A stretch of 64,000 nucleotides of DNA from positions 19,931-83,930 of IMG/VR virus record IMGVR_UViG_3300029448_000010; one strand, given 5' to 3'. The notes beneath the pieces were generated by a model. The model was not told the origin of the DNA, ran no database searches, and was given only the letters and a program-made list of their open reading frames with translations. Positions 27,209-55,514 of the stretch are shown here, one piece after another. This DNA is from a virus. The position numbers were made by a program, and so were the translations under genes. Within the stretch, counting starts at the first letter, position 1. Each line of letters starts with the position of its first letter.

Positions 27209-27376
27209 ATGACACGCTGTAATTATTTAGAAGGCTGGTTCGATAAGGAATCTGCTAAATTAGACAAAGTTGAGAATGATTATGGTACTTGTTTAGTTAC
27301 AGGTCAAAAGAAAAAGGCTACTACTTTAACTAAGGCTCAAGCATGGGCCAAAGTATTCAGGAGGAATAAGGTATGA
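27209..27376 (+). CDS. Unknown basic 55-residue protein
   Basis: Starts after GTGATTAAT and ends by ATGA overlap with the next gene. Two cysteines (TRCNYLEGW, YGTCLVTG) and a basic Trp-containing tail (AQAWAKVFRRNKV). It lacks the tag. Function unknown. Confidence 0.65.
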   Translation: MTRCNYLEGWFDKESAKLDKVENDYGTCLVTGQKKKATTLTKAQAWAKVFRRNKV

Positions 27377-31507: not shown

Positions 31508-32163
31508 TGATTACTCGCAAACGATGTGCCGTCTGTCAGCATGATGATAGAGAAGAATTAGAAGCCGCTTTAGAAGGCGCATTTATTTCCTGTGATGATT
31601 TAGATAATAGAGAAGGCTGGAGAAGCGGTACTTCTGCAAAGCATCTTAGAAATCACATGGGGGATTATACTAACAGTAGTAATCCTAAATGTAAATTGTG
31701 TGTTGACCCAATGAGGAAACATTACGAGGAAGCATTATCCGATGGTAATATCACTGCTGAAGGCGTTTCTCTAGCACTTGATGTTACTAAGGAACAGGTA
31801 CAGCGACACATGAAGCACCACTTAGCACCTTTGGTTCAACAATCTGCCGCCAACATTATAGCGAAAAAGGAAGTAAATGAAATCGAACTACTAAGTACTA
31901 ACATACAAAGGTTAGATGATAAGTTAGATGAGTTATTCAGGAATACAGAATTAGAACCTAGAGAGATAGATAGCCTAACTAAACTTGCTAAAGAAGTTAG
32001 AGAGAGTCTAAAGTATCTTATGGAGTTTAAGGGCAAACTTATTCACAAGAGACAAGACACAATTATTGTCGCACAAATGCAAGTTGTTCAAGAAGTCCTT
32101 GCACAAAACAATCCTGAGATATGGCTTGAGATTAAAAAGAAAATGCAGGAGAAATTACAATGA
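31507..32163 (+). CDS. terS: Probable small terminase subunit with tandem zinc/HTH modules
   Basis: This 218-residue protein contains two copies of a module typical of phage TerS-like DNA-binding proteins: CxxC, then helix, then RH...H. Copy 1 is CAVCQHDDREELEAAL ending KHLRNHMGDY; copy 2 is CKLCVDPMRKHYEEAL ending VQRHMKHHLAPL. A long helix follows (LDDKLDELFRN, then a C-terminal coil), as in the oligomerisation domain of TerS. It lies eight genes upstream of TerL. Such proteins recognise genomic DNA ends and activate packaging. It lacks the tag. A general DNA-binding regulator is the alternative. Confidence 0.6.
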   Translation: MITRKRCAVCQHDDREELEAALEGAFISCDDLDNREGWRSGTSAKHLRNHMGDYTNSSNPKCKLCVDPMRKHYEEALSDGNITAEGVSLALDVTKEQVQRHMKHHLAPLVQQSAANIIAKKEVNEIELLSTNIQRLDDKLDELFRNTELEPREIDSLTKLAKEVRESLKYLMEFKGKLIHKRQDTIIVAQMQVVQEVLAQNNPEIWLEIKKKMQEKLQ

Positions 32164-32396
32164 GTTGGTTTGATATATTGAAACAAGAATCGGTAAAAGC
32201 ATTGGTTGAAGATGCTTTAGATTTGCATAGTAGGGGTCGTGATTTTTACAAAGAAACTTATACAAAAGAAGATATTAAGCAAATGATGGACTTTTTCAAA
32301 AAGGAAAATAAAAGAGATAGGCTAGACCAATTTGATACGGACTATAATAGTAAAGCAATAAGACTACTAGAAAAAGCATTGGAGGAATTACAATGA
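32160..32396 (+). CDS. Tagged protein 10 (MSWFDILK), 78 residues
   Basis: Tag MSWFDILKQE, then an acidic helical body (VEDALDLHSRGRDFYKETY). No known family. Its ATG overlaps the preceding stop. Confidence 0.7.
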   Translation: MSWFDILKQESVKALVEDALDLHSRGRDFYKETYTKEDIKQMMDFFKKENKRDRLDQFDTDYNSKAIRLLEKALEELQ

Positions 32397-32779
32397 GTTG
32401 GAAAGATATAATTAAAGCACCATTTGATGCACCTAGAAGAAGTAGGGCATTCAGGGCTAGAAGTAAGGCTGAAGAAGAAATAAGTGCAACAAAACCTAAA
32501 GAGGATTTATCCACTGACATTTCTGCTTTTGCTTCTAAGATTATTGACCCTCAGATGGAAAGATACGGTAGGGCTTTTGTGGATATAACAAAAAATAAAG
32601 ATTGGAAAGAATTTTCTGAATTATTGGATAAATACAAAGGTAAGGATAGACTAGCGAATGAACTCGGTAAATTATACAATACCAAAGTGTTCATTACCCA
32701 TAGGCCGTCTAAAGGCGACCCTAGAGATGAAGACTATGTTATTGATATTGGAGCAAACCACGAAGAAAGAGGTGCTTAA
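32393..32779 (+). CDS. Tagged protein 11 (MSWKDIIK), 128 residues
   Basis: Tag MSWKDIIKAP, a basic patch (PRRSRAFRARSKAEEE), then a globular alpha/beta domain ending in an Asp/Glu-rich strand (DEDYVIDIGANHEERG). Starts by ATGA overlap. No known family. Confidence 0.7.
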   Translation: MSWKDIIKAPFDAPRRSRAFRARSKAEEEISATKPKEDLSTDISAFASKIIDPQMERYGRAFVDITKNKDWKEFSELLDKYKGKDRLANELGKLYNTKVFITHRPSKGDPRDEDYVIDIGANHEERGA

Positions 32780-32781
32780 TA

Positions 32782-33204
32782 ATGAGTTGGAAAGAAACAC
32801 TAAAAGCCCACTGCGGCACAGAGGAAAAATTAGAAGACGATGACCCATTTGAAAAACTAGTCGGTAATCAAGATGAAATAGATGCTGACGGTGATGGTAA
32901 AATAACAGGAAATGATTTTAAGATTCTAGGAAGAAAGTCTAAACTAAAGAAAGCAAGAGACATGAAGCAAGTCCCTCTATCTAATGGCAAGACCTATCCA
33001 CAGAATATTAGAATATTTGAAGCCACTTTGAAAAAAGAAGGTGGTGCGGCTGGTATTAAGAATTTAGTTGATGCAAGTAAACTATCAAAAAAAGAAGTGA
33101 AGGCTGTTCTTGATATAATGAAGAACATAAGGATTCACAAGTATGGAGACATTATTCTAATGGATGGATTACCTAAAGGAAAAGGGAGAGGGTTCACTGC
33201 ATGA
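32782..33204 (+). CDS. Tagged EF-hand-like protein 12 (MSWKETLK), 140 residues
   Basis: Tag MSWKETLKAH. Residues 34-45 (DADGDGKITGND) form a near-canonical EF-hand calcium loop: Asp at loop positions 1, 3 and 5, Lys at 7, Ile at 8 and Asp at 12. Only one loop is visible, as in dockerin or bacterial calcium-binding proteins. A helical C-terminal domain follows (LSKKEVKAVLDIMKNI). Possible structural calcium site in a head protein. Confidence 0.7.
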   Translation: MSWKETLKAHCGTEEKLEDDDPFEKLVGNQDEIDADGDGKITGNDFKILGRKSKLKKARDMKQVPLSNGKTYPQNIRIFEATLKKEGGAAGIKNLVDASKLSKKEVKAVLDIMKNIRIHKYGDIILMDGLPKGKGRGFTA

Positions 33205-33464
33205 GTTGGGAAAATATAATTAAAAGAGGCCGAAGTTATGGTCGTAAAAAAAGAGCCGCCGAACATAACGCACCTACTCTTAAACAAATAGAAGAATTAG
33301 AGAAAGACCTTGAAAAGCATAAGGTTGAATTATCAACTTTAGGAACAAGTCAGCAAATTGAAAGATATGGTTTTGAAACACAGATGAACAAGGTTCGCAA
33401 AAAAGAAAAAGTCATTCGTTCATTAGAAAGCAAAATAAAAGAATTAAAGGATAAACTGAAGTGA
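33201..33464 (+). CDS. Tagged coiled-coil protein 13 (MSWENIIK), 87 residues
   Basis: Tag MSWENIIKRG, a basic segment (RSYGRKKRAAEH), then a clear heptad-like coiled coil (QIEELEKDLEKHKVELS; RKKEKVIRSLESKIKELK). No other domain. Confidence 0.72.
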   Translation: MSWENIIKRGRSYGRKKRAAEHNAPTLKQIEELEKDLEKHKVELSTLGTSQQIERYGFETQMNKVRKKEKVIRSLESKIKELKDKLK

Positions 33465-33468
33465 TAAC

Positions 33469-33870
33469 ATGGATTGGCATATTATTCTAAAGAAACTTGT
33501 GTGTCCTACGGCAACACAAGACCTGAAACTCAACACTAAAAATAGAGATAGGGCAATAAAAGAAAAACATATTCAATATGGCCCTCTCAATCTAAACGAT
33601 GAAAAGTATTGGGAAGAATATGCTAAGAAGTGGAATACTACTGCTGATGTGGCTAAGGAATCTAATTGTAGTAATTGTGTTGCATTTGACATATCTCCAA
33701 GAATGGATGACTGTATGCCACTAAATACAGACGAAGATGGCCGACTAGGTTATTGTTGGATGCACGATTTCAAATGCCATTCTGTGAGAACTTGTTATAC
33801 TTGGGCTAAAGGAGGCCCAATTGATGACGATAAGGCTTCTAAAGAAAATCAAATGAGAGGCCGCAGGTGA
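33469..33870 (+). CDS. Tagged Cys-rich protein 14 (MDWHIILK), 133 residues
   Basis: Tag MDWHIILKKL. The C-terminal half has seven cysteines: CSNCVAF, DDCMPL, GYCWMHDFKCHS and RTCYTWAKGG. The order resembles small iron-sulfur (HiPIP-like) or zinc proteins found in marine phages. Basic tail (NQMRGRR). Metal type cannot be told from the sequence. Confidence 0.7.
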   Translation: MDWHIILKKLVCPTATQDLKLNTKNRDRAIKEKHIQYGPLNLNDEKYWEEYAKKWNTTADVAKESNCSNCVAFDISPRMDDCMPLNTDEDGRLGYCWMHDFKCHSVRTCYTWAKGGPIDDDKASKENQMRGRR

Positions 33871-38641: not shown

Positions 38642-39121
38642 ATGGGTTGGTTTGAGATATTAAAAAGAACAGAAATTGTTCCCGAAGAATCTCTTGAGCA
38701 TTTAGAAGAGTTTGTTTTAGCAGAAGAGAAAGGCTATCCTTCTGTATTGCACCCTCTAAAAATAGTCGCTGAGTTTGATGATGATACAAACGATTTGAAG
38801 GCTTATACTTCTTTTAGAGATTTTGGTAAATTCTTTTTTGTAGGTAATAGTTATTCTTTTGTTAGGGGCGGCGGTTTTTACAAGAAAGTTCTAAACTTTA
38901 GAGACAAGTTTTTAGGTTCTTCTAAACCTAAGATTGCTTTACTTAATGTTAAAGAGTCCACTCAAATAGACAGAATGACTTCTTTAGTTGAAGGTAGGGG
39001 AGGCATTAAGATAGAAGAATATTCACAAGTGGATGATGTTATGGATGAATCTATGTATAACGAATTTAAGAAATTACCTATGTTTAGATACCCGCCATTA
39101 AAAGAAGGTGAAGAAGAATGA
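38642..39121 (+). CDS. Tagged protein 15 (MGWFEILK), 159 residues
   Basis: Tag MGWFEILKRT. The body looks globular and beta-containing (LKAYTSFRDFGKFFFVGNSYSFVRG, given here in part as GKFFFVGNSYSF), and it ends in KEGEEE, the coupling-type tail that overlaps the next ATG. No known family. Confidence 0.7.
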   Translation: MGWFEILKRTEIVPEESLEHLEEFVLAEEKGYPSVLHPLKIVAEFDDDTNDLKAYTSFRDFGKFFFVGNSYSFVRGGGFYKKVLNFRDKFLGSSKPKIALLNVKESTQIDRMTSLVEGRGGIKIEEYSQVDDVMDESMYNEFKKLPMFRYPPLKEGEEE

Positions 39122-39534
39122 ATTGGTTTGATGTATTAAAATTAAAAGACGATGATGGAAACTTGTTAATTGTTGAAGATGTTGACGAGTTTGTAAGATA
39201 CCTTAGAGAATCTTTAAGGGCAGTGGCCGCACCTTTCTATGGTACTATTACACAACCAAAGAGCGAAGGAAATCCTAGAAAATCGAACATAGTTGTAAAG
39301 GAAACATGGGTCGATGATAATACCTTAAAGGTAGTAGCCAGCGTAAGAAATCCTAATACGACACAAAGAGAATACTTTGAAATTATTCTCCGAGAAAATG
39401 AAGAAGGAGACTTTTACTTTGATAAGGTTGAAGGGGCGGGAGTGTTCCTATTCCGTAACACTAATGTCAGTAATTCGGGTAAATTAATACAAGAAATACA
39501 GCAAGCGGTTAAGAGATATTTACAAAGTAGTTGA
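39118..39534 (+). CDS. Tagged protein 16 (MNWFDVLK), 138 residues
   Basis: Tag MNWFDVLKLK. Body: acidic helix (VEDVDEFVRYLRESL) and a beta-rich domain (NIVVKETWVDDNTLKVVAS; REYFEIILREN). No known family. It directly precedes the large terminase gene. Confidence 0.7.
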   Translation: MNWFDVLKLKDDDGNLLIVEDVDEFVRYLRESLRAVAAPFYGTITQPKSEGNPRKSNIVVKETWVDDNTLKVVASVRNPNTTQREYFEIILRENEEGDFYFDKVEGAGVFLFRNTNVSNSGKLIQEIQQAVKRYLQSS

Positions 39535-40978: not shown

Positions 40979-42334
40979 GTGACAACGGCAGAAGAATACG
41001 ACGAAGCCTCTGAAAGAATGAAGCGTTTAGCGGAGTTAGAGAGAGAAAAGCAAGAAGAATTATCAGAAGTTCAAAATGATTTAAGCACTAAATTAACAGG
41101 AGTTTCTGATTATGTCATGTCTGATTATGAAGCAGTAAATACTTTATCCAAGAATCTAAATATTAATGCTACTGATGCTAGGAAACAACTATCCACATTT
41201 CCTTCTGAATATATTGTTGATGGTCAAAATATCCCAGACCTAGTAAGAAAAATGCGTAAAGCAAGAAGGAAACTAAAAGGAGATTCTAGAATAAGAATGT
41301 CTGAAACTATTGATACAGTTATTGATGGATATGCAGACCACATAAACAAATGTATTGATTCTATTTATTGGATTACTCCGTATAAGATTCCTCTATTGAA
41401 AATGAGATTCAACGAAAAAGATTTATCTAAATTAAATAAGATTTCAGAAGTTAAACAAAGAAGAAACATAGTTGATTCTCTTTGTAAATTATGGGAAATA
41501 GATTTAAACAAAACAGATATGGCTTTTGGTTCTAACTATGCTAAATTGGAAAAAGAATCTAGATTAGCAAAAAAGCAATTTAGAGAAGAGTTAAAGAAAA
41601 TTAGCGACCAATCTTTAATTAAATCTAAAAAGGAAAAGTCTTTAAATTTTATTTTAAAATCAATATGCGAAAATCCGGGAATTGGTATTGGAACTATTCA
41701 TGACCAAATGCCAAACAATTTACATAAAGCCAATTCAAGTAATACTATTTCTAAAATGATTAAGAAATTAGAAGTAGGTAGTATAAATGGTGCTTATTAT
41801 AAATTACCTAATGAATTAAAAAAGAATGTTTGGGCTTATACTGCCGCATTTATTGATTCCGACGGCTATATTACTATGGATAGAAACCATAATCCAAGAG
41901 TAGGGTTGGTTGCCACTGGAGAAAGAGGTAAGGTGTTTATGAATGAAATGCACAAATCTATTGGGTTTGGTAAGTTGCATTTAGACCAAAAATCCCCTCA
42001 AGATACACGGCCTGTTAATCGCTTAAACTTTTATTCACAAGGAGATGTAGTCAATCTATTAACTAAATGCTTACCACATTTCAGACTAAAGAAGGGTAAT
42101 GCTGAATTATTATTAGAATTAATTCGCATGAAAAAGTCACACAAGAAGGCTGATTGGTATAAGTCTAGGTGTGATGAGATATTCAAGTTAATGAAATGGG
42201 AGAACCATAAAGACCATGTTGGTTTTGATTTTGCTAAAGAAGGAATATATGTTGATGATATTTCTAAGTTACAAGGTAACTGTAAGATGTCTGCTATGGA
42301 TGAGTTAGAAGGTATTGGAGGTATGATAGTATGA
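40979..42334 (+). CDS. LAGLIDADG-type endonuclease-like protein, 451 residues
   Basis: It starts with GTG after GAGGTGGTT, ten bases after TerL. The N-terminal 200 residues are coiled/helical and unassigned; residues 215-285 look like a winged helix (NFILKSICENPGIGIGTIHD). Then AYTAAFIDSDGYITMD matches the LAGLIDADG core, with GLVATGERGKVFMNEMH and KSHKKADWYKSRC typical of homing endonucleases. One LAGLIDADG copy implies a homodimer. It could be a free-standing homing endonuclease or a domesticated packaging nuclease. Its last residues overlap the next tagged gene. Confidence 0.72.
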   Translation: MTTAEEYDEASERMKRLAELEREKQEELSEVQNDLSTKLTGVSDYVMSDYEAVNTLSKNLNINATDARKQLSTFPSEYIVDGQNIPDLVRKMRKARRKLKGDSRIRMSETIDTVIDGYADHINKCIDSIYWITPYKIPLLKMRFNEKDLSKLNKISEVKQRRNIVDSLCKLWEIDLNKTDMAFGSNYAKLEKESRLAKKQFREELKKISDQSLIKSKKEKSLNFILKSICENPGIGIGTIHDQMPNNLHKANSSNTISKMIKKLEVGSINGAYYKLPNELKKNVWAYTAAFIDSDGYITMDRNHNPRVGLVATGERGKVFMNEMHKSIGFGKLHLDQKSPQDTRPVNRLNFYSQGDVVNLLTKCLPHFRLKKGNAELLLELIRMKKSHKKADWYKSRCDEIFKLMKWENHKDHVGFDFAKEGIYVDDISKLQGNCKMSAMDELEGIGGMIV

Positions 42335-42528
42335 GTTGGGAAGAAGTATTGAAAAAGAAATCCACTGTCAATTCAGCAGGTAATTACACTAAACCTAAAC
42401 TTCGTAAAAAAATCTTTAACCGAATTAAAGCAGGTAATAAGGGCGGTGCATCCGGTCAATGGTCTGCTAGAAAAGCACAGATGGTTGCCGCCGCCTACAA
42501 AAAAGCAGGTGGTGGTTATCGTGATTAA
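42331..42528 (+). CDS. Tagged phage-family protein 17 (MSWEEVLKK), 65 residues
   Basis: Tag MSWEEVLKKK, followed by a body (YTKPKLRKKIFNRIKAGNKG, then GQWSARKAQMVAAAYKKAGGGY) that matches small basic proteins common in marine phages. There, to my knowledge, such bodies often stand alone. The combination of a known phage body with the tag suggests that the tag is a modular addition. Confidence 0.75.
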   Translation: MSWEEVLKKKSTVNSAGNYTKPKLRKKIFNRIKAGNKGGASGQWSARKAQMVAAAYKKAGGGYRD

Positions 42529-42793
42529 TTGGCGTGATGTTCTCAAAGCCAAAGCAGAAACTCAACAGGCTTTAACCACTTGGACTGACGAAGAATGGGG
42601 AAGTCAAAAACAACACAAAGCGAAAGCAAAGGGTAAAACCCCCCCTTCTAAAGCAAAAGGAAGATATATGCCTAAAAGTAAATTTCAAGGAACAGGACAA
42701 GGAAGATTAGACTATCAAGACAAAAAGAAAGAAGAAGGAACTGAACAAGGAAAACAACATGTTCCAACAGGAAAGAAGTTCAAGCAGGTGTGA
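42521..42793 (+). CDS. Tagged protein 18 (MINWRDVLK), 90 residues
   Basis: The start is set at the GTG (42521) overlapping the previous stop because the resulting protein begins M-INWRDVLKAK, a tag with one extra residue. An ATG at 42446 lies inside the upstream gene. Body is Lys/Gln-rich and basic (KQHKAKAKGKTPPSKAKG), likely nucleic-acid binding. Confidence 0.65.
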   Translation: MINWRDVLKAKAETQQALTTWTDEEWGSQKQHKAKAKGKTPPSKAKGRYMPKSKFQGTGQGRLDYQDKKKEEGTEQGKQHVPTGKKFKQV

Positions 42794-42795
42794 TT

Positions 42796-43146
42796 ATGTG
42801 GGAAGATATTCTGAAAAAGAAACCTAAAAGTGCTAGGTCAAGAGCCTTAGAGAGAGCCAAAAAGAAAGGGCTTAAAGGATTAAATAGACCACAGCGATTA
42901 AAAGACAGTTCAGGAAAATCACATCATGTAATGGCCTTTGAAGGTAAAAAAGCCAAGTACATTAAATTCGGTCAAGCAGGTGTAAAAACAAATCAAACTG
43001 CCGGACAACGAAAAGCATTCAAATCTAGACACGCAAAGAACATAAAGCGTGGTAAAATGTCTGCCGCTTATTGGGCTGATAAGGTAAAGTGGAGTCCAAA
43101 GAAAACCAAAGAAAAGAAGAATAAGAAATGGCGGAAGGGTAGTTGA
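42796..43146 (+). CDS. Tagged phage-family protein 19 (MWEDILKK), 116 residues
   Basis: Tag MWEDILKKK, with one residue fewer before Trp. A very basic body (ARSRALERAKKKGLKG) is followed by FGQAGVKTN, RKAFKSRHAKNIKRGKMSA and YWADKVKWSP. I recall that ending (RHAKN...AYWADKVKW) from marine phage proteins of unknown function. Probable DNA-binding virion protein. Confidence 0.73.
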   Translation: MWEDILKKKPKSARSRALERAKKKGLKGLNRPQRLKDSSGKSHHVMAFEGKKAKYIKFGQAGVKTNQTAGQRKAFKSRHAKNIKRGKMSAAYWADKVKWSPKKTKEKKNKKWRKGS

Positions 43147-43614
43147 ATGTGGAAAGACATATTAAAGGCTGATTTTGTGGTAAAAACCAATTGGCCTGAA
43201 GCGGATTTTTGGCTACAAAAAAGAGGTTCTGAACAGAATGTCGGAAAGCCTATGAGAAAGTTTAGCAAGGTTCAAGGTCAATATAACATAGGAATTAAAG
43301 TACCGAAAGGAATGAATAAAGAATATGTATATGCACAATTAGCGGCACTATTTAGAAAAGGATATTGGCAAACACATTCTTACGGTACTATTAATTTACA
43401 GCATATTAGAGTCGATGATGTAAAGAAGATACTACAATCTTTTGAAAATAAAGAAGACTACACAGATGCTACATCAGATAAGATAGAAAAAATATATGAT
43501 AAGTGGCTAAATGATTCTAAGTTGATAAGTCAATTACTTATGTCAAGTAACTCTCTAATTAGAGAAGGTCGGGAAATTAAAAGGTTCTTAGGGAAAATGG
43601 AGGACATGAGATGA
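43147..43614 (+). CDS. Tagged protein 20 (MWKDILK), 155 residues
   Basis: Tag MWKDILKAD. Body has alpha/beta sequence (KFSKVQGQYNIGIKVPKG) and helical C-terminus (ENKEDYTDATSDKIEKIY). No known family. Starts immediately after the previous stop. Confidence 0.7.
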   Translation: MWKDILKADFVVKTNWPEADFWLQKRGSEQNVGKPMRKFSKVQGQYNIGIKVPKGMNKEYVYAQLAALFRKGYWQTHSYGTINLQHIRVDDVKKILQSFENKEDYTDATSDKIEKIYDKWLNDSKLISQLLMSSNSLIREGREIKRFLGKMEDMR

Positions 43615-45406: not shown

Positions 45407-45835
45407 ATGGATTGGAAATCTATTATTAAAAAAGCAAGGACTATGGCGGATTTAAGCGATAGCGATAAATCAACCCTTGAAAAAGAAAAAGAAAGGTATA
45501 ATAGAACCATAGAAGATGACCCAACAGAATATGATTCATTTGAAGAAATCGTAAACTTTTATTTATCTGAAGGAAAATCAATTCCTCAAATCGTGGAAAG
45601 TTTAGATGACGAATATAATGAATGGTTCACTTCTTCTGATGGGGAAAAATGGGCTAAATCTAAGGGTGGAATGACTCATAGAGAATATTATGATGTAGTG
45701 GATGACATGCTTGGAGAGGATAGCGACCATTTTACCGAGGATTATGACCTTAGCGAAGAAGCACTGGAAAGGCGGTCTGAAAGAAGTGCAGATGCTTATT
45801 TCTCAGGCGGCGGATATAATATGGGTGATGACTAA
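45407..45835 (+). CDS. Tagged protein 21 (MDWKSIIKK), 142 residues
   Basis: The start is the ATG at 45407, giving MDWKSIIKKA; it follows GTTGGTTGAT. The body is acidic and helical (PQIVESLDDEYNEWF; DHFTEDYDLSEEALERR). No family recognised. The frame extends upstream into the portal tail, which I discount. Confidence 0.65.
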   Translation: MDWKSIIKKARTMADLSDSDKSTLEKEKERYNRTIEDDPTEYDSFEEIVNFYLSEGKSIPQIVESLDDEYNEWFTSSDGEKWAKSKGGMTHREYYDVVDDMLGEDSDHFTEDYDLSEEALERRSERSADAYFSGGGYNMGDD

Positions 45836-46071: not shown

Positions 46072-49000
46072 ATGTTATGGGAAGCAGTGCTAGTAGGGCG
46101 TGAAAACGACCCTTCTTTTTTATTGAAGGCATTGGTTAATGACATAGAAAAGAGATACAAAGGAAATAATCCGTATCTAGATAATGAAGGTAAGGCCATT
46201 GATGAAGTAAAGGCTAAGGAATGGGAGAAAACACCAACTGTTCAAAGTCTAAATTCGATAGAGATTTTAGATAAAATACCTACGATTGGTAATAACTCTT
46301 TAAGGGATGCTTTCATATCAGCAGGAATGTATGCTATTAGTGAGAAAAATCTATTTAATAGAAGCAATACATTTAAGGTATTTTATGAAGCACAAAGAAA
46401 AAAAATACAAGATTATTATAAAAAACTTATTAGTAATCAAAAGAAACAAAAGTATTCTTTATCTGAATTAAATAAAGAATGGATAAAAGATAATAGATAT
46501 TGGAATCCTAAAGATAAATCAATAGATGAGTCTAAAAAGAAAATATTTCATGATTTAGGAATATCAACCGAAGGAACTTTCACAGGATATGACAGACCAA
46601 TAGAAGGCTTTGAAGATAAATTTTTTGGGAGTAAGGAAAGCCTAGAACCCGAACTAAAGAAACTTAAAGAGCGATTAGAAAAAGAAGAGAAAAAAACTGA
46701 AAAGGATTTCGATAATATAAACTTTAATTGGCAAACTAAAGAGGATGCCATTAAACAGAATAAAAAGTCTATTGAGTATCTAAAAGAAGAAATAGAATTA
46801 ACAGAAGGAAGAATCGCAGAAGGTAAAAGAAATCAATTAAGTAATAAACAATTATTTTCTATGTATGGAGGAAAGGCTAAGTTCCAAAAGAAAATAAATG
46901 ATAGTTATGTTTCTGCTATTAAACTATTAGAACAAGAAGATTTAAGATTGTTTGATGAGAACTATAAGAAAATGCAAACTAAAATAGATAAGGATATATC
47001 TAATGCAATTAAAAACACAAAGCCATCTCCCGATATGAAAGATACTATTACCTTTGAAGAAGTATATAGTAATATAGAAGGTCAAAGTGAATTAACTGCA
47101 CTAAAAGACCTTCTTGATAATAAAGAAATGAAACAGTATTTAAACCTTCTATCAGATAAATACACTCTTCCTAAGAAATGGGATGATATGTCCGATAAGG
47201 AACAAAATACTTGGGAGTTAGATAATAAAAGAAAGTTTCAAACTAATTACCAAAGACTATTAAAAACCTTATATGCTCTTAAAAATAAATATTCTGCTGA
47301 TGCTCCTACTTCAAATAAGATTGCAAAAGTTGAAGCGGTCATAAAAACTCTTAATGATAGATTTAACATGAAGTCATGGAAACCGGCCAGAAAAGAAGCA
47401 GAAGAAATGAAAAGAGAAAGCGGCACATCTTTGAGAAGAGATTCTAAAGAGTCTGACTTTGGCCCTAATAAATTAAAAAAACCAAGACCTAAAAAATGGA
47501 AATCAATGTCATTTAAAGAACAGCAAGAATGGTATTCAAAAAACACAAGTAAAAATCCTAGAAGAAAAGCCGCAGAAGAATCTGAAATGCAGAATATATA
47601 TGAAGTGGTATTTGGCGACAAAGAACCTTTAGATAAAATAGGTAAGAATAAAAAAATAAAAGCACTATTACCTAGTAAAGAAGTTGATGTTACGAAACCC
47701 ACTAGGGAAATGTGGGGTAATCTATTAACTAAACTAGAAGCGTTTGGTAAATCTAAAAACCCCGAAAGTCAATTTAACAAGTTAATCTTGTCTAATGAAT
47801 TATATCTTATTGATGTAATTAACTTAGTACAGACTAAAAGAAATAATGTATATCCTAAATACATGAAATTAACGAGTAAAAAGTTTGTATTTCAGAAACC
47901 TCCCAAAAAGAAAAAAGATGTTTCCATAGGGGGAACTAAGACTAGTCAATTATCCCCAACAGTAGGACTTTTTGATAAACTTGAGGGTCAAATGACTTCT
48001 GCACAAAGAAAAAAGTATCATAGTTTTATAGAAACAATCTTAGATAAAATCCCAAAAAAATATATTAGTGTAGTTAAAAATAAAAAGGGAGAAGACGAAG
48101 AAAGAATAGATTATGAAAAATTAACCGCCCCTAAAGGTGAAGGGGGAATGGGTTCTGCGGGTCAGAAAATATCAGATGAATTAGAAACAGAAATGAGTCT
48201 TGCTGGTAAAGGACATAAATATTTACAAGGCTTGGAAAAGAAAATTAAATCCAAAAAATATAAAGGTCTTGAAGATGGAGAAACTGAAGAATTTGAACCC
48301 ACGGGAAATAAAGACCCAAGAACAGAAAGTCAACGAGCGTGGGATAAAAAGTACTTCCGTAAAGCCGAGGTTGGTAGCAATAAAGCGGCTATGAAAGCAA
48401 GAGAAAAAAAATATGCAGAAATGTATAAGAAAGCAACTATGGCTAACTTTACTAAGTTAAAAGAAGATATAGATAAAGTTAAGCCCGATGAGTTAGATAA
48501 GTATTTCAATAAAACAAAAAGTGTTATGGATGCTGATTTATTCCATTGGATTGATAAAACTAACAAAGGAATAAGCATGAGGATTATTCCTTATGGAGAA
48601 GGAGATAAAGATTACTCCACCATTAGAAAAGATGTTCTTGATATAATGAAAATATTAGATAAAGATATGGAATACGAAGGTTCTGAAATGAAAGTATTAG
48701 ATGTTCTTAATATTCTCGGAAGAAAGGTGTATAAAAAGAAAGCAGGTTCTATTGTTTCAGCCAAGAAAAAAGAGGTTTCTGCTAAATTAAAAACCATAGG
48801 TGAAGAAGCAGTTAGAGCAGTTATGGATAAAGATAGTAAAGATTTCAAGATACCTAGATTGCTTAAATTAAAATTAAAGCAAAACAATCTTAAACTTAAA
48901 AAAGAGTTTTATAATATATTTACTGTTACACCGACCCCTGATAAAACGACAAAGGTTGAGGCTATGAGAATAGTTGAAGGTACTGAAGAATTATTAAATC

Positions 49001-49374
49001 AATTAACCCCAACAGAAGAAAAACTGTTAGTTATTTGGGAAAAGGTTTCTGATTCTTTAAAAGCCACTCCTGAGCAAAAAGAGGCAAGAGAAAGACAAAG
49101 AGTAGTCATGGATAAAGAAGAATTACGGGCTATTAATGAGTTATTAGAAGCGTATGAAGATGCAATATATGATATTGACGAAAAACTTGACCCTCTTGCT
49201 AATGAATTAATTGAAGTTCAAAAAGCAGTTGAAGAGTTAGGATTTGGCGAAAGAGAAGTTGAACACACAAAGCGGCTGATGAAGAAACAGGCGGATTATT
49301 TGAAAACAGTTACGAAAAAATATAACGAAATAAGGCGTTATGCTGTGGAATTAAAAAATAAAATAGGTGAATAA
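46072..49374 (+). CDS. Giant charged helical protein, 1100 residues, tag-like start
   Basis: Unknown. It begins MLWEAVLVGREN, a divergent form of the tag. The remaining roughly 1,090 residues are overwhelmingly Lys/Glu/Asp/Asn-rich and helical, with several coiled-coil stretches (for example KLKERLEKEEKKTEKDFD and EYLKEEIELTEGRIAEG, quoted in part). A short Gly-rich spot (GEGGMGSAGQ) lies near residue 690. There is no enzymatic motif by eye. A good candidate for an internal head, ejection or core protein. Confidence 0.75.
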   Translation: MLWEAVLVGRENDPSFLLKALVNDIEKRYKGNNPYLDNEGKAIDEVKAKEWEKTPTVQSLNSIEILDKIPTIGNNSLRDAFISAGMYAISEKNLFNRSNTFKVFYEAQRKKIQDYYKKLISNQKKQKYSLSELNKEWIKDNRYWNPKDKSIDESKKKIFHDLGISTEGTFTGYDRPIEGFEDKFFGSKESLEPELKKLKERLEKEEKKTEKDFDNINFNWQTKEDAIKQNKKSIEYLKEEIELTEGRIAEGKRNQLSNKQLFSMYGGKAKFQKKINDSYVSAIKLLEQEDLRLFDENYKKMQTKIDKDISNAIKNTKPSPDMKDTITFEEVYSNIEGQSELTALKDLLDNKEMKQYLNLLSDKYTLPKKWDDMSDKEQNTWELDNKRKFQTNYQRLLKTLYALKNKYSADAPTSNKIAKVEAVIKTLNDRFNMKSWKPARKEAEEMKRESGTSLRRDSKESDFGPNKLKKPRPKKWKSMSFKEQQEWYSKNTSKNPRRKAAEESEMQNIYEVVFGDKEPLDKIGKNKKIKALLPSKEVDVTKPTREMWGNLLTKLEAFGKSKNPESQFNKLILSNELYLIDVINLVQTKRNNVYPKYMKLTSKKFVFQKPPKKKKDVSIGGTKTSQLSPTVGLFDKLEGQMTSAQRKKYHSFIETILDKIPKKYISVVKNKKGEDEERIDYEKLTAPKGEGGMGSAGQKISDELETEMSLAGKGHKYLQGLEKKIKSKKYKGLEDGETEEFEPTGNKDPRTESQRAWDKKYFRKAEVGSNKAAMKAREKKYAEMYKKATMANFTKLKEDIDKVKPDELDKYFNKTKSVMDADLFHWIDKTNKGISMRIIPYGEGDKDYSTIRKDVLDIMKILDKDMEYEGSEMKVLDVLNILGRKVYKKKAGSIVSAKKKEVSAKLKTIGEEAVRAVMDKDSKDFKIPRLLKLKLKQNNLKLKKEFYNIFTVTPTPDKTTKVEAMRIVEGTEELLNQLTPTEEKLLVIWEKVSDSLKATPEQKEARERQRVVMDKEELRAINELLEAYEDAIYDIDEKLDPLANELIEVQKAVEELGFGEREVEHTKRLMKKQADYLKTVTKKYNEIRRYAVELKNKIGE

Positions 49375-49375
49375 C

Positions 49376-49741
49376 ATGACATGGGATTACTACGACAACA
49401 AAGAAGAATTTATTCTTAAAGCAAAAAAATCACCTGAAAAAACTATTCTTAATAGTTTAGATAAGAAGCAGACTAAGAAGTTGAAGAAGACACTGCAAGC
49501 GGCAGAACCTACTGAATTTTTTGGTCAAGACTTTACTAAGATGGGTGACTTAATTGATGTGCTTAAAGATTTAGACCTTACAAAGTCAGATAAAAAACTA
49601 AATAAGCGCATGAAGAGTATGGATGAGCGCAACCTTGACATAGTGGCAACCGCTACCAAACTCCGTAAGGACTACGAAACCTTGTACCGGCAATTACGGG
49701 AAATGGTTTATCCAAAGAAAAAAGGTGAAAAAGATGAGTGA
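49376..49741 (+). CDS. Unknown 121-residue protein with divergent tag (MTWDYYDNK)
   Basis: Starts MTWDYYDNKEEFILKAKKS; only Met-x-Trp and a later ILK are shared with the tag, so membership is doubtful. The body is basic and helical (LDKKQTKKLKKTLQAA; YRQLREMVYPKKKG). Overlaps the neighbours by a few bases. Confidence 0.65.
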   Translation: MTWDYYDNKEEFILKAKKSPEKTILNSLDKKQTKKLKKTLQAAEPTEFFGQDFTKMGDLIDVLKDLDLTKSDKKLNKRMKSMDERNLDIVATATKLRKDYETLYRQLREMVYPKKKGEKDE

Positions 49742-49970
49742 AAGTGAAGATGTATTGGCTATTCTAAAAGCCTTAACCGAAAAAATTGAACAGTTAGAAA
49801 AAACAGTCTATCATCAAGATAACCTTTTGATGAAGTCAGGTTTTGTAGTAGCAACAAGTCCAAGTCCAAAAATGAATAATTCAGTAGCCGCAACTTCGGG
49901 TATTGGAGATGTTTCTAATATGGAATGGTCTGATATTCATAAGATGGTCGAAAAGATAGGTGGTCAATAA
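49734..49970 (+). CDS. Small protein with C-terminal copy of the tag (MEWSDIHK), 78 residues
   Basis: Starts MSESEDVLAILKAL after AAAAGGTGAAAAAG. A coiled coil (LTEKIEQLEKTVYH) is followed by a linker and ends NMEWSDIHKMVEKIGG. That last segment is nearly identical to the end of the protease-scaffold protein (SMDWSDIHKMVNNR) and resembles the N-terminal tags (MSWKDIIK). It could be a second scaffold or portal-linked protein binding the same partner. Confidence 0.72.
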   Translation: MSESEDVLAILKALTEKIEQLEKTVYHQDNLLMKSGFVVATSPSPKMNNSVAATSGIGDVSNMEWSDIHKMVEKIGGQ

Positions 49971-50362
49971 TGCCAGAAAGAGTAACTAAAGAAGAAAGAA
50001 TAGTGAGCCTTGCTATTGAAAAGGCTAGGAAAGCAAAGGAATTACTTCAACAAGAAAGCACTCATGAAAGATTGCCTCTTGAAGATGAATTGGTAGTTGA
50101 GAAAATTACACGGCCAAAGGCTAAAAATGTAAAGTTAATGAATCAAACAGACCAAAAAGAAGGATATGGTCTTGCTGGTGAGTCTATTGAACATACGATT
50201 AAAAAGAATATAAGGATTAAGCGACAAAGAGAAGGTAAAGAAATACTAGAATTATTAGATTCCTTGATTGGTAAAGAAATGACTACTTCTCATAAAGGTA
50301 AAATTGTATCATTAATGACTAGAATGCTATCCTCTGCTCAAGAAGATAATCTGCCTCAGTGA
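49970..50362 (+). CDS. Unknown basic 130-residue protein
   Basis: Unknown. Charged and helical (SLAIEKARKAKELLQQE; HTIKKNIRIKRQREG). No tag. It lies between the C-terminally tagged protein and the ligase-like protein. Ends in a conserved-looking QEDNLPQ. Confidence 0.65.
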   Translation: MPERVTKEERIVSLAIEKARKAKELLQQESTHERLPLEDELVVEKITRPKAKNVKLMNQTDQKEGYGLAGESIEHTIKKNIRIKRQREGKEILELLDSLIGKEMTTSHKGKIVSLMTRMLSSAQEDNLPQ

Positions 50363-50367
50363 TTTCT

Positions 50368-52896
50368 ATGCCAGCATCCGGCCTTCTATTTGAGAAGGGT
50401 AAAGCCTCTAATGAAATATTAAGATTATTTGAAAGAGTTAGAGTGGCGTATCTTTCTGCACGAACAGACCCCAAAGAATATGGGTCAAAGTGGCATAGTG
50501 CAGTGGAATACATTAGAGATGAATACGATGATTCAGAAGAGTTTGGAGAAGAATTAAAGAATTTCATCAATGATAAAGATTTAGAGCATGAAGATGCTAA
50601 GGATGCAACGACGACTACTGCTGAAAAGATATACGAATCTGTAAAAAATCTAAGGTACTCTTCTGACCAAGTTAGTGACCCCTTCTCTAAAAACTTCAAA
50701 GGTAATGTCCTTGAAGAATTACTTGATAATCCTGAATCAATGGTTAAATTCGTGCATTATGCTATGCGTTCAGACAATAAAGCACTTAAACCATCCATTT
50801 ACAGCGTTAAAGACATGGAACCTGACACAATTACAGAGGGTCTTATGGGACTTGACCTAGAAGTTGACGATATACCCCTCTATATTATAGAGCATTACGG
50901 TGACGGAAAAGACTCAAAGAAGGTCGGAAAGAAAGTTAAGGCTGCTATGTCTATGTTAGAACTATTATTCTTTTCTAAGCATGATGAAGAAGATTGGGAT
51001 GAATTAAAAGACATTGATATGGAAACTGATACTCCTAAGAAAATGATAACAAAGTCTGATACTGAAAAGGGAAAGACAGATTTTATTACTCCTAATAAGC
51101 CAATGTATAGAATCTTTGAGATAGATGATATGAAAGAACTAAAAGGGTTTAGTGGTGAGTATATTGTTCAAGAAAAGTATGACGGTATGAGAATACAAGT
51201 ACATAAGATAGATAATAAGATAAAAATATATTCATACGATGAAAAGGATATTACTAGTAAATGTAAAGAACAAGTCAAGGAATTAGAAAAGAAACACTTC
51301 GGAGATTGCATTCTAGATGGGACACTAGTGTTATTTGATGGTGATAATTCTTTATCTAGAGCAGAAGTTATTTCACAGGTATTTAGTGACAAAAATCCTG
51401 ACTTTAAACTAAAGGCTCATATGTTTGATATTATTAGACATAATGAAAAAACTATTGCTGATGAACCTTTGAATGATAGATTAAATATTATGTTTAATAA
51501 TTATTCAGTTCATTCAAGCGAATACCTTAACTTTCCTTCTAAAAAAGACACTCGTTTAGCAGACTCAATAGAAGATGTTGAGAAGTATGCTAAAGAAATA
51601 ATGGACATGCCAACAGCAGAGGGAGTAGTAATTAAAGATGCTACTTCAACTTATTACATAGGCACACGCAAAAATCCTAAATGGGTTAAGTGGAAGAGTT
51701 ATGTTGATTTAGATTTAATAGTATTAGATAAGAAAAAGAAAGGGAATACTTATTCCTATGCTTTAGGTGCTGGCCCAACAGAAGGCGAAGGCAAAGAATA
51801 CGAAACAATAGAAGGTAATACCTACATGAATGTAGGTAATGCAATTAATACTAAGATTGAAGTTGATGTTGGTTCTATTCTCAGAGTTAAAATAGACGAG
51901 GTAAAGAAGACAGGTGATAAATACTTAATTTATTCTGCTAAAGCAATAGAAGTACCTGAAGTGGAAATGCCTGACAAGTTAGTTACTTTGGAATTGTTAT
52001 CTAAAGACAATAAAAAAGAATTAAATTACGATGTTAAAGCATTAGAGAAAGGAATAGTAATTACTGATTATATTCACGGCGAAGCCTCTATTATTATTAA
52101 AAGTGACATGGATGGTTTTACTATCTATGGGTTTGATGAACATAATTTAATGGCTAAAAATGCTATGTTAGATTTAGATGTTTGGAAAACTCAAGCAGAA
52201 GAAATAATGAAAACGAAGCAATCCAAATTGACAGTAGCGGCATTTAATCATATGAAAGAAAAAGGCCCAAAAACTCCTAAAGAATTGCATAATTATTTAG
52301 TAAAGTCTCACTCTTCCCTTTATGAAGACATTTTAGATAGTAAATTGACAAGAGTAAAAGATTGGATGGAACAGAGGGATGGTATATCTTATGACGAAAA
52401 GACAAAGAAATTGTTTTCTGACCCTGATAAAATAATGCAAGAGACAAATATACTCAAGCAGTATAAAACACCTAAAGAATATCAAAATGGAAACTTTAAA
52501 TTATATCTAAGAGAAGATGAAAATTTAAACTTAGTAATTAAATTAAAAGATGAAACTTTGAATTGGCTGATAGATTTAGAAAAAGACGATGATATATTCA
52601 AATTGTTTGGTAAAGCCAATAAATACCCTGCACAAGTAGCACAGAACATATCTAAGAAGAAAATTATTGATTCTGGGAAAATAGGTCTTGGGGTACAGAA
52701 GAATGGCTATCACGAATACTTCCTAAAAGGAAATAAGTTTGAAACTAAATTGCATCTTAGAGTGCTAGAAGCAGAAGGTAAAACAATGTGGTTAGCATGG
52801 ACTGGCTACAAACAGAAGCCAGCAGACAAAGAAGGTGATGCTGGCTTATGGAATATTTACGAGGATAGGTATAGAAAAATACCACTTCCTGAATAA
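50368..52896 (+). CDS. ATP-dependent DNA ligase-like large protein, 842 residues
   Basis: Unrelated charged N-terminal 240 residues precede a nucleotidyltransferase core. Motif I is EKYDGMRIQVHK (lysine about residue 270), motif III is LDGTLVLFDGD, motif IIIa HMFDIIRHNEK, motif IV EGVVIKD and motif V WVKWKSYVDLDLIVL, followed by an OB-like region. In motif III the Glu of LDGE is replaced by Thr, which may abolish or alter sealing. The C-terminal 200 residues end in a distinct domain (LHLRVLEAEGKTMWLAWTG). Position between portal and protease implies a virion or prohead protein. A complete ligase already exists at 860-2398. Confidence 0.82.
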   Translation: MPASGLLFEKGKASNEILRLFERVRVAYLSARTDPKEYGSKWHSAVEYIRDEYDDSEEFGEELKNFINDKDLEHEDAKDATTTTAEKIYESVKNLRYSSDQVSDPFSKNFKGNVLEELLDNPESMVKFVHYAMRSDNKALKPSIYSVKDMEPDTITEGLMGLDLEVDDIPLYIIEHYGDGKDSKKVGKKVKAAMSMLELLFFSKHDEEDWDELKDIDMETDTPKKMITKSDTEKGKTDFITPNKPMYRIFEIDDMKELKGFSGEYIVQEKYDGMRIQVHKIDNKIKIYSYDEKDITSKCKEQVKELEKKHFGDCILDGTLVLFDGDNSLSRAEVISQVFSDKNPDFKLKAHMFDIIRHNEKTIADEPLNDRLNIMFNNYSVHSSEYLNFPSKKDTRLADSIEDVEKYAKEIMDMPTAEGVVIKDATSTYYIGTRKNPKWVKWKSYVDLDLIVLDKKKKGNTYSYALGAGPTEGEGKEYETIEGNTYMNVGNAINTKIEVDVGSILRVKIDEVKKTGDKYLIYSAKAIEVPEVEMPDKLVTLELLSKDNKKELNYDVKALEKGIVITDYIHGEASIIIKSDMDGFTIYGFDEHNLMAKNAMLDLDVWKTQAEEIMKTKQSKLTVAAFNHMKEKGPKTPKELHNYLVKSHSSLYEDILDSKLTRVKDWMEQRDGISYDEKTKKLFSDPDKIMQETNILKQYKTPKEYQNGNFKLYLREDENLNLVIKLKDETLNWLIDLEKDDDIFKLFGKANKYPAQVAQNISKKKIIDSGKIGLGVQKNGYHEYFLKGNKFETKLHLRVLEAEGKTMWLAWTGYKQKPADKEGDAGLWNIYEDRYRKIPLPE

Positions 52897-52945
52897 TGAG
52901 CCGATTCTTTAATATAGTCATTAAAATTACAAGGGGTTGAAGACT

Positions 52946-54169
52946 ATGAGCATTAGTGTCATGGCATCTAGGAATAATGATTTCAGGATTCTTAAAAGTG
53001 ATGAATTAATGATTGGTGGTTATGCAAGCATCGAAGTTGTGGATAAACAAAACGATTTAATTACACTAGAAGCATTAAATACCGCAGTTAAAAAGTTTAT
53101 GGATGATAAGAAATTCAGAAATGTAATGACAAATCATTCTAATGTTCAAGTTGGTGAAGTAATAGACTCTTATCGAGATAAAAGTGGAAAACTATGGAAA
53201 TCAGAAGTTGATGATGTAGGATTTTTTGTAGTAATAAAGTTAAGAGATGATATAGAAAAAGCCAAAGAAGTTGGAAGAGGTATTCGTAAAGGAACATTAA
53301 GGTCTTTTAGTATCGGTGGACAAGCATTACAAAAGGTAAAGAAAAGTCACGGTGAATTAGGCGAATACAACGAAATTAGTAAATTAGAACTCCATGAGGT
53401 AACAATCTGTGAAAAAGGAATTAACCCCGAAGCAAAGTTTGATATTTTAAAAAGAGATAAAGGAGATGAAAAAATGAGTGATAAACTTGAGAAAGCATTG
53501 AATGAGTTGGATATACTTCTAAAAGAAGTTGAAGAACTTAAGGGCGACGAAGAGGAAATGGCTGAATACGCTGAATCCGAATCTGATGAAAACATGGAAA
53601 TGGCAGATGAAGAAGAAATGGCAGATGAAGAAGAAATGGCAGATGAAGAAGAGATGATGGGTGGAACACACCCTGCTTACAAGGATGGTGCAGAAAAAGC
53701 ATATCTTCGTACTCTTGATGGCGCAGGTAATCAAATTGGAGAACCAGCAGACCGTATTGTAATTAACAATGGTAAGCCTACTGCAACCGATATGCCGGTA
53801 GTTAAGGCATTTAACAACGGAGAGTTTGATACTCTAAACCTTTCTAATTCTAACATTGAAAAGGCATACGAAGCATTCCGTCAAGAACAACTTGAAGCAC
53901 TTGCATACGACAACCTACGAAAGTCTTTTGAAACTCGTTTTGAGTCTGAAAAGGCAAACCGTGAGAATGTTCTAGCAAAGTCTCAATATGACGCACAGGC
54001 TGAAATTGCTTCCATGAAGCAAGAGTTTAGCGACCTACGCAAGTCTCTTACTGCTGAAAAAGAAACTATTCTAAAGGCACAAGAAGAGTCAGTAATTAAA
54101 ATGCCAAGCATTGAAGAGATTTCATCAATGGATTGGTCAGATATTCACAAGATGGTGAACAACAGATAA
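52946..54169 (+). CDS. HK97-type prohead protease fused to scaffold, tag at C-terminus
   Basis: This 407-residue fusion has an N-terminal serine protease: TNHSNVQVGEV (catalytic His64), GTLRSFSIGG (Ser122) and LHEVTICEKGINPEAKF (Glu151 region), as in HK97 gp4/herpes assemblin-like proteases. Residues 175-240 are acidic with three tandem 18-base repeats (MADEEE). The C-terminal 150 residues are a helical scaffold with coiled coil (RFESEKANRENVLAKS). It ends SMDWSDIHKMVNNR, matching the tag found at the start of at least 21 other proteins. The start at ATG 52946 follows AAGGGGTTGAAG. The scaffold would be degraded on maturation, freeing the interior. Confidence 0.9.
   Translation: MSISVMASRNNDFRILKSDELMIGGYASIEVVDKQNDLITLEALNTAVKKFMDDKKFRNVMTNHSNVQVGEVIDSYRDKSGKLWKSEVDDVGFFVVIKLRDDIEKAKEVGRGIRKGTLRSFSIGGQALQKVKKSHGELGEYNEISKLELHEVTICEKGINPEAKFDILKRDKGDEKMSDKLEKALNELDILLKEVEELKGDEEEMAEYAESESDENMEMADEEEMADEEEMADEEEMMGGTHPAYKDGAEKAYLRTLDGAGNQIGEPADRIVINNGKPTATDMPVVKAFNNGEFDTLNLSNSNIEKAYEAFRQEQLEALAYDNLRKSFETRFESEKANRENVLAKSQYDAQAEIASMKQEFSDLRKSLTAEKETILKAQEESVIKMPSIEEISSMDWSDIHKMVNNR
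53600..53653 (+). repeat. Three tandem 18-bp repeats in the scaffold gene
   Basis: ATGGCAGATGAAGAAGAA occurs three times in succession (the last with GAG), encoding MADEEE repeats in the linker between protease and scaffold. Slippage could change copy number. Confidence 0.85.
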
Positions 54170-54179
54170 GGTGATTAAG

Positions 54180-55514
54180 ATGACAGGATATATTAACACA
54201 ATAGCAGATTTAGAAGCACAAACATATGGAATGAATCTTCCAGCCGGTAATGCCTTGCTAAAGCAAGCAGGTATGGTTGGTGGAATACACACAGGACATG
54301 ACGGTTCTCCGTCATTTAGCGGTTCAGCCGTTTCTGATGTATCAGCCCTATACAATGTAGTTTACGGACAAAAGGTTTGGTCTATGCTAAACCGTGAAGT
54401 TAACGCATTGTCTATGATTTCAAAGCGACCTTACACTTCAAGTGGATGGAGAGTACTAAAGAGCAGACCTGCGGGTGGTTCTGGTAATCTCTTTACAGTT
54501 GATAAAGCAGATACTTCCCTTACATTGGGAGAATTGGGTTCAGACACACCAAGAGCAGACGCAATTGGTGGTGTACCAGAAAATGCAGGTCTTTCAACCG
54601 CACAAGATGGATTGGGGCCAATTGCACCAACTTATGCTCAATTGAACATGAGTCCTAAAGTAGTTGCTCATCAATTTGATTTCAGCGAGTTGGCTATGGA
54701 AATGGCACAAATTGACGATGGTATCGGAGATATTAGAGCGCAAATGCGTGAAGATATGGGTAAGCACCATGCAGAAGTACAAAACAAGATGCTTGTTATG
54801 CCACTACAATTTTACGGTGAAGCAACTCTATTGCCTAACATTGGTAACAATTATACTTCTTTGCTAAAGGTAGTTACTTCAAAGGCTGAATTAGACCTAT
54901 TGGATGCACAATCTTCTCTAATGACAGATGGTGCTACTGCAACAAATGTAAGTCACATTTACGGTACAAACCGTGATAGTGCTTCATTCCTTGATTCAGA
55001 AGTTGACCAAGGTACTTCCTATGCGGCAACAGATGTTAGGTCACTAACTCTAACTTTGCTAAATAACATGGTTCGTAACTTGAGACTTGCTGGTGGTTCA
55101 CCAAAGGTTATTCTAACCGGATATGATACCATTCAAGCAATTGCAGACCTATTGCAAAGCCAAGAAAGATTCATGGATAGAAAGGAAATTGTACCAACAG
55201 TTAACGGTGTTCGTGGAACAAAGGGTCAAGAAGTCGGATTTAGAGTAGCAACATACTACGACATTCCACTAATTCCTGTAAAGGACATGACACAAACTGG
55301 ACTTGCTTCAACTAAACTATCTGACCTATTATTCCTTGATACAGACCATCTATGGTTATCTGTTATGAAGCCAACTCAATACTTTGAGGATGGTATCGCT
55401 AATGGAAACCCATTCGGTGTAGGAACACTAGGAAACCGTGCATTGTACCGTACTATCGGTGAAGTCGGTTGTTCGTTCTTCAAGGGTCAAGGTAAAATAA
55501 CTAACATACAGTGA
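54180..55514 (+). CDS. Major capsid protein, HK97 fold
   Basis: This 444-residue protein directly follows the protease-scaffold gene. Codon choice and strong ribosome binding sequence (AAGGTGATTAAG) suit an abundant protein. The N-terminal helical region, extended loop (SGWRVLKSRPAGGSG), spine helix (EMAQIDDGIGDIRAQMRED) and P-domain strands (PKVILTGYDTIQAIADLL; VATYYDIPLIPVKDM) are typical of archaeal-virus HK97 capsids. Final TIGEVGCSFFKGQGKI is the C-terminal A-domain strand. Whether the protease trims its N-terminus cannot be told from the sequence. Confidence 0.9.
   Translation: MTGYINTIADLEAQTYGMNLPAGNALLKQAGMVGGIHTGHDGSPSFSGSAVSDVSALYNVVYGQKVWSMLNREVNALSMISKRPYTSSGWRVLKSRPAGGSGNLFTVDKADTSLTLGELGSDTPRADAIGGVPENAGLSTAQDGLGPIAPTYAQLNMSPKVVAHQFDFSELAMEMAQIDDGIGDIRAQMREDMGKHHAEVQNKMLVMPLQFYGEATLLPNIGNNYTSLLKVVTSKAELDLLDAQSSLMTDGATATNVSHIYGTNRDSASFLDSEVDQGTSYAATDVRSLTLTLLNNMVRNLRLAGGSPKVILTGYDTIQAIADLLQSQERFMDRKEIVPTVNGVRGTKGQEVGFRVATYYDIPLIPVKDMTQTGLASTKLSDLLFLDTDHLWLSVMKPTQYFEDGIANGNPFGVGTLGNRALYRTIGEVGCSFFKGQGKITNIQ

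Follow-up and report, generated by a model that had tools for sequence, protein, structure and literature searches.

The C-termini of the scaffolding proteins of phage P22 and of herpesviruses touch the coat (PMC12005531, PMC12474303), and in phage T4 a 10-residue N-terminal sequence takes highly diverse internal proteins into the head (PMC3012670, PMC9026906). Here we analyzed a 64,000-nucleotide stretch (the window; bases 19931-83930 of the 83.9-kb virus record IMGVR_UViG_3300029448_000010) in which an eight-residue peptide of the pattern M-x-W-x-x-I-[LIV]-K, hereafter the tag, opens approximately 20 open reading frames (ORFs), all on the + strand between 26.9 and 45.4 kb, and resembles the C-terminal tail of the prohead protease-scaffold fusion encoded downstream. 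Judged from sequence, the tag is likely to work in head targeting, and it is somewhat more probable than the opposite that tag and tail use a shared docking site. The reading that we favor, to which we give slightly better than an even chance, is that the tag is a portable docking peptide that recruits late proteins into the assembling head via a site the same as, or closely related to, that used by the scaffold tail.

The window codes for an HK97-type capsid protein, a portal, and an S78 prohead protease, as well as for GroEL and two ATP-dependent DNA ligases; inspection of the ORF list by eye added GroES and a TFB-like protein. Among annotated viruses, its closest relatives are HVTV-1 and HCTV-1, two haloviruses, with capsid protein identities of 24.8-27% (27% for HVTV-1). 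Based on gene content and capsid relatives, the window is assigned to the Magrovirales, viruses of marine Poseidoniales, and the features of that group (PMC10768690) were found in it: homologous capsid protein, portal, and protease, kinship to Druskaviridae, GroEL/GroES, TFB, a large genome, and two opposed gene clusters. In the surface ocean, magroviruses have been reported to rank with the most abundant viruses (PMC10160649). Our comparison set comprised 13 magrovirus genomes, including that of the window.

To compare the tag with the tails, the following features of the head cluster are needed:

49734-49970, + strand: 78-amino-acid protein with a short coiled-coil-like region, a linker, and a tail
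49920-49967, + strand: tail of the 78-amino-acid protein, MEWSDIHKMVEKIGGQ, which co-varies with the scaffold tail
52937-54169, + strand: prohead protease-scaffold fusion of 410 amino acids (Pfam PF04586, E = 3.9e-9; PHROG head maturation protease, 1.9e-16)
54128-54166, + strand: C-terminal tail of the scaffold, MDWSDIHKMVNNR
54180-55514, + strand: major capsid protein, HK97-like, of the SU10/halovirus type (PF17236; phrog_24667 major head protein, 1.6e-25)

The full C-terminal stretches are SMDWSDIHKMVNNR in the protease-scaffold and NMEWSDIHKMVEKIGGQ in the 78-amino-acid protein. Both C-termini given in a preliminary description of this DNA are present, with the amendment that the 78-amino-acid protein really ends in GGQ, its final Q having been omitted earlier. 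MSWKDIIK (32393) and MDWKSIIK (45407), the two tags cited there, are true ORF starts.

A six-position matrix trained only on the N-terminal tags of the 12 other genomes was used to score the C-terminal 20 residues of the 117 window proteins. The scaffold and the 78-amino-acid protein ranked first and second (12.3 each), followed by a protein scoring 7.0. A score of 12.3 was not reached by any of 100,000 random internal segments, which were resampled from approximately 20,000 positions (a resolution of about 1 in 20,000). When all 23,750 non-N-terminal positions of the window's genome were considered, the two tails came second and third behind a tag lying inside the 42446 ORF (see below), and one site on the replication strand equaled their rounded score. 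Across the 13 genomes, the pattern [MK]xWx[DE][IVL]x[KR] occurs 28 times within the last 20 residues of a protein (0.1 expected from shuffled proteins), a count that includes non-independent orthologs in three main families. The claim that tag and tail are related motifs is thus borne out well beyond chance, with M-x-W-x-[DE]-I-x-K as the common core.

The protease-scaffold consists of an S78 protease, an acidic linker, a long coiled-coil helix, a short variable linker, and the C-terminal tail, and an alignment of 22 relatives revealed that the tail is conserved behind the variable linker and a conserved coiled-coil region. An AlphaFold2 (AF2) model, in which the protease was unfolded (mean predicted local distance difference test score, pLDDT, of 43; shallow alignment) and which was used for the helical C-terminal part only, predicted a long helix at residues 304-385 and a separate tail helix at 400-408 with low to moderate confidence. 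The comparison of scaffold C-termini among related viruses, proposed in the preliminary description, showed the tail in every relative whose gene reads to the end. It was detected in approximately 80 relatives retrieved by the protease, in a search that had MDWSDIHK among its six seeds, and in approximately 40 retrieved by the capsid protein alone, with no tail in the query. Clade variants of the scaffold tail include MSWSDIHKAVGG, MDWSDVHRLIGG, MSWADLNRLAGN, MDWSELNRFVGN, and MSWDEIGRFV, and the most distant relative has MSWAEINSFVSQ. One contig (G009, 3300021958_000021, 184733 bases) carries two differing magrovirus scaffold genes, at 71827 and 163272, with approximately 91 kb between them, and is either a chimeric assembly or two joined genomes. 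A scan of a genome collection matched only three contigs (L263-L265, NZMJ01), which carry magrovirus head genes in a metagenome-assembled genome labeled Maricaulis sp. and are probably misbinned virus contigs.

Orthologs of the 78-amino-acid protein, each with a tail motif, were found in 12 of the 13 genomes by a search that also returns scaffold tails. The two tails of a genome pair in a characteristic manner (scaffold/78-amino-acid protein): DIHKMV with DIHKMV, MSWSDIHKxxxG with MSWxDI[ED][KR]FVxG, ADLNRLA with MSF[DE][DE]MAKII, and AEIN with KEIN. Distances between scaffold tails and between 78-amino-acid protein tails, corrected for the distance of the protease-scaffold body, gave a partial r of 0.57; none of 500 permutations was as high, although this is not a clean probability because clades are shared.

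We also analyzed viruses outside the group. In HVTV-1, HCTV-1, and two methanogen viruses whose capsid proteins are related, tags do not rise above background (one chance match in approximately 99 kb of HVTV-1 and zero in the stretches from the other viruses), and the proteases of HVTV-1, HCTV-1, and vir335 lack a tail of this kind. The haloviruses HVTV-1 and HCTV-1 (Druskaviridae) share a homologous capsid protein, the protease, and the head gene order with magroviruses, yet they have neither tag nor tail, and their protease ends in GPAAQQLYD(L) (GPAAQQLYDL in HVTV-1). Tag and tail are therefore both present in all magroviruses examined and both absent in the outgroup, as expected if they belong together. 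A tail conserved without the tags, named beforehand as the finding that would speak against the proposed relationship, was not what we observed: both are conserved in the magroviruses examined. In the two haloviruses, another repeated segment, RVYVDSPxEAPEGVQVQQG, is common to several large head-cluster proteins, and it could be their own analog of a loading or docking module.

The tags of the window and the proteins carrying degenerate or variant copies are as follows:

26913-26936, + strand: N-terminal tag MTWKNSIK, a weak variant
27373-27396, + strand: N-terminal tag MSWQDIVK
27887-27910, + strand: N-terminal tag MSWKNILK
28534-28557, + strand: N-terminal tag MSWKNILK
28860-28883, + strand: N-terminal tag MTWEDIIK
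29117-29140, + strand: N-terminal tag MSWKDSLK, a weak variant
29410-29433, + strand: N-terminal tag MSWFDIIK
29756-30892, + strand: 378-amino-acid late protein whose C-terminus, KKSWIEMLWA, is a degenerate C-terminal tag copy
30897-30920, + strand: N-terminal tag MNWENILK
31247-31270, + strand: N-terminal tag MSWENIVK
32160-32183, + strand: N-terminal tag MSWFDILK
32393-32416, + strand: N-terminal tag MSWKDIIK
32782-32805, + strand: N-terminal tag MSWKETLK, in an orthologous family of 13 members in 12 genomes, 12 of them with the tag
33201-33224, + strand: N-terminal tag MSWENIIK
33469-33492, + strand: N-terminal tag MDWHIILK, in a family found in 10 genomes
38642-38665, + strand: N-terminal tag MGWFEILK
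39118-39141, + strand: N-terminal tag MNWFDVLK
42331-42354, + strand: N-terminal tag MSWEEVLK, of a 65-amino-acid ORF
42524-42547, + strand: tag INWRDVLK inside the 42446 ORF, the best non-N-terminal matrix match in the window (score 16.3)
42796-42816, + strand: N-terminal tag MWEDILK
43147-43167, + strand: N-terminal tag MWKDILK
45407-45430, + strand: N-terminal tag MDWKSIIK
46072-49374, + strand: 1100-amino-acid protein with the degenerate N-terminal tag MLWEAVLV (the ortholog in genome G001 starts with MSWKAVLA)
49367-49741, + strand: 124-amino-acid protein with the variant N-terminal tag MTWDYYDNKEEFILK (orthologs, MTWDWYGDILK and MWEHVLK)

INWRDVLK probably lies near the true start of the 42446 ORF, the called start being too far upstream.

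Tagged ORFs were detected in all 13 magrovirus genomes, with 12-20 per genome by pattern count. A loose pattern, with ligases and small early proteins among its false positives, gave 214 tagged ORFs that fall into 152 families, 118 of them singletons within the set. When one representative of each of 129 tagged families was aligned, the common part was only MxWxxILK, with W invariant and K present in more than 90%; position +5 after W is K or R in every counted tag. No sequence common to the strictly tagged proteins was seen beyond the tag lysine. Residue 2 is S, T, N, or D in 140 of 162 MxW tags, which fits a helix cap. All 183 strict tags (in proteins of at least 60 amino acids) lie on the scaffold strand, as opposed to untagged genes (n = 1305), which are distributed 618 on the same strand versus 687 on the other. 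The tagged bodies are small (median 119 amino acids) and have a positive mean charge (+1.8 per 100 residues vs. -1.2 for the rest); large tagged proteins exist as well (994 amino acids in G008 and 685 in G017). Pfam and PHROGs scans of the 129 bodies mostly gave no match; one tagged protein is a GNAT acetyltransferase, and another matches PAP2 phosphatase. The suggestion of a general cargo-loading signal agrees with these data in that the tag is portable, restricted to one strand, and attached to very diverse bodies, as such a signal would be.

The tag is also found at C-termini. A late protein family of approximately 375 amino acids is present in 13/13 genomes, and most of its members end with the tag (KKSWQDILRW, IVKSWVDIVRV, VAKSWLELLKDF). 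Such copies are not explained by a translation signal or degron acting at the N-terminus. A 218-amino-acid late protein (31507-32163), conserved and possibly the small terminase, has a Cys/His N-terminus and a strongly conserved C-terminus, PEIWLEIKKKMQEKLQ, that is faintly tag-like; this C-terminus (WLEIKKKMQ) was not counted as a tag copy, the motif likeness being weak.

A mechanism consistent with these observations can be outlined. M-x-W-x-x-I-[LIV]-K would probably fold as a short N-capped helix and dock at a site that also recognizes, or closely resembles the site for, tails with the core M-x-W-x-[DE]-[IL]-x-[KR]. By analogy with the scaffold tails of herpesviruses and P22, docking would take place inside the procapsid, most likely on the inner face of the capsid protein, which is the most probable receptor, and the scaffold, portal, or protease could serve instead. 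Tagged cargo would be encapsidated, the fused protease would clear the scaffold, and the cargo might be delivered into the next host. The argument is built at the sequence level, from the motif relationship, the conservation of both motifs, portability, late-strand restriction, the presence of copies at N- as well as C-termini, and the co-variation of the two tails. A stronger version, in which at least a dozen rapidly exchanged proteins per genome have taken over the scaffold's capsid-docking tail as their cargo label, at either terminus and with loading through the same site, seems to us possible but somewhat short of an even chance.

Several observations weigh against the shared-site reading. 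Position +4 after W is L, I, or V in tags, H, N, or G in scaffold tails, and E or A in the 78-amino-acid protein. A search for N-terminal tags that vary together with scaffold tails revealed almost no such variation: in the clade with tails MSWADLNRLAGN and MSF(D/E)(D/E)MAK, the N-terminal tags stay MxWxxI/L-L-K, and the only parallel shift of the tags in this divergent (ADLNRLA) clade is I to L at +3 (7/33 vs. 6/121; P = 0.007, uncorrected). The co-variation test between the two tails leaves some shared ancestry in. An AF2 prediction of the scaffold end and capsid protein as one chain, made from a relative whose two genes are adjacent and in frame, with the intervening stops read as glycine, had a mean pLDDT of 38, and binding was not readable from it. 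We know of no virion proteomics of these uncultured viruses. Thus, of the preliminary claim that the tag mimics the scaffold tail, the related motif stands, and strict mimicry is spoken against by the difference at position +4 and by tags that barely track tail changes. Tag and tail share a core without being interchangeable copies; they may bind one pocket slightly differently or occupy neighboring sites, or the tags may bind the scaffold.

The last of these options corresponds to an alternative in which the tag binds the scaffold core itself (coiled coil or tail), much as T4 internal proteins co-assemble with a core of gp22, and in which tag and tail are not competitors for the capsid protein. 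T4 capsid targeting sequence (CTS) propeptides have core affinity and the internal proteins co-purify with gp22 (PMC9026906); moreover, the +4 difference and the lack of joint change of tags and tails fit differing partners. Alone, however, core binding leaves unexplained both the tail-tag likeness (core W-x-[DE]-I-x-K) and the same tail on a second small protein, and we regard it as rather unlikely. It is also conceivable that the motif is a recognition or cleavage site, [ILVM]-x-[KR], of the fused S78 protease, comparable to L/I-x-E in T4, so that tags and tails are trimmed at maturation. This pattern fits all tags and nearly all tails. HK97 cuts its own capsid protein after a lysine, and the capsid protein of magroviruses has in its N-arm (residues ~22-32), between variable stretches, an invariant N-x-[ILV]-L-K-x-A-G, which is a candidate maturation cleavage site; in one clade it reads GGNDILKQAG, near the DILK of the tag. 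A protease site leaves the invariant W and the helix-cap residue unexplained, there is no common sequence past the lysine, and the capsid [IL]-L-K alone is weak evidence. This reading appears improbable, and a role in cleavage is compatible with one in targeting.

Similarly improbable, in our estimation, is that the tag binds something outside head loading (the virus GroEL/GroES, a tail or portal hub, or a host protein) and that the scaffold resembles it by binding the same third party. All 13 tag-bearing genomes encode GroEL, and most tagged bodies have no known function; on the other hand, tags are restricted to the late strand, and the tail is at the extreme end of the scaffold, the usual place of capsid contact in P22 and herpesviruses. 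The idea that the shared start is a nucleic-acid signal (one that helps to initiate translation, for example) or is left over from gene duplication draws on Ser2 of the tag, which is mostly encoded by AGT (78% in tags vs. 28% in bodies), an excess to which a general bias at second codons contributes (among untagged genes with Ser2, AGT makes up 44%). However, the I, L, V, D, N, and E residues of the tag are encoded by varying codons, those for Ile track body usage (P = 0.51), and all six Leu codons occur, indicating that selection acts on the peptide. In addition, the bodies are unrelated. Considering this codon diversity and the copies at C-termini, the idea is largely refuted and we give it hardly any weight.

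Other features of the window may be mentioned here. Magroviruses have two ATP-dependent DNA ligases (family of 26 members in 13 genomes); in the window, one (860-2398, - strand) lies in the replication cluster, and the longer one (845 amino acids, 50359-52896) lies within the head cluster directly upstream of the scaffold. The ORF at 40979-42334, right behind the large terminase gene, has by eye the look of a LAGLIDADG-type homing endonuclease.

For most magrovirus late proteins, no function is known. Should the tag be a head address, virion-carried, probably injected proteins could be picked out across the whole group by simple pattern searching; the system would also offer a ready test of how scaffold docking and cargo loading share one site, as well as a peptide, short and modular, with which to load an HK97-type shell. 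If the stronger version with a reused capsid-docking tail is true, the effectors that a virion brings into marine archaea would form a changing set. No mention of the tag was found in the magrovirus literature covered, which did not include Philosof 2017 and Zhou 2023, and priority is not certain.

Among known systems, the T4 CTS (IPI, IPII, IPIII, and Alt) is likewise a short peptide at the N-terminus of late proteins that are basic, change quickly, and are otherwise unrelated (PMC3012670). It differs in that no sequence relation is seen (W-x-x-I-L-K here, L/I-x-E in T4), and the magrovirus tag is found on a dozen or more proteins per genome and also in C-terminal copies. For the likeness of the tag to the scaffold's own tail, we found no T4 counterpart described. 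Because there is no sequence relation and magrovirus tags do not carry the T4 prohead protease site L/I-x-E, the magrovirus tag appears functionally like the T4 CTS while falling outside that family. An N-terminal peptide of P1 DarB is sufficient to send a reporter into the P1 head (PMC9024508). Dar proteins differ, however, in having no common motif, the signal of DarB being a single longer one of 10-30 residues. Encapsulin cargo-loading peptides are short terminal peptides on varied cargo that dock inside an HK97-fold shell; in contrast to magroviruses, encapsulins are cellular compartments with mostly C-terminal peptides and neither scaffold nor protease.

The herpesvirus UL26/UL26.5 system joins an N-terminal protease to a scaffold with a C-terminal tail, which recurs on a second, protease-free protein; this tail binds the major capsid protein (PMC12474303). 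Magroviruses likewise have a prohead protease fused to a helical scaffold and a conserved tail after a flexible linker, whereas their second tail-bearing protein is the product of a separate gene, the 78-amino-acid candidate scaffold, and not of an internal start. Reuse of the tail sequence on many cargo proteins is not known to us from herpesviruses. By these analogies, the magrovirus pattern appears to unite a scaffold terminal motif like that of P22 and herpesviruses with a related cargo label like that of T4.

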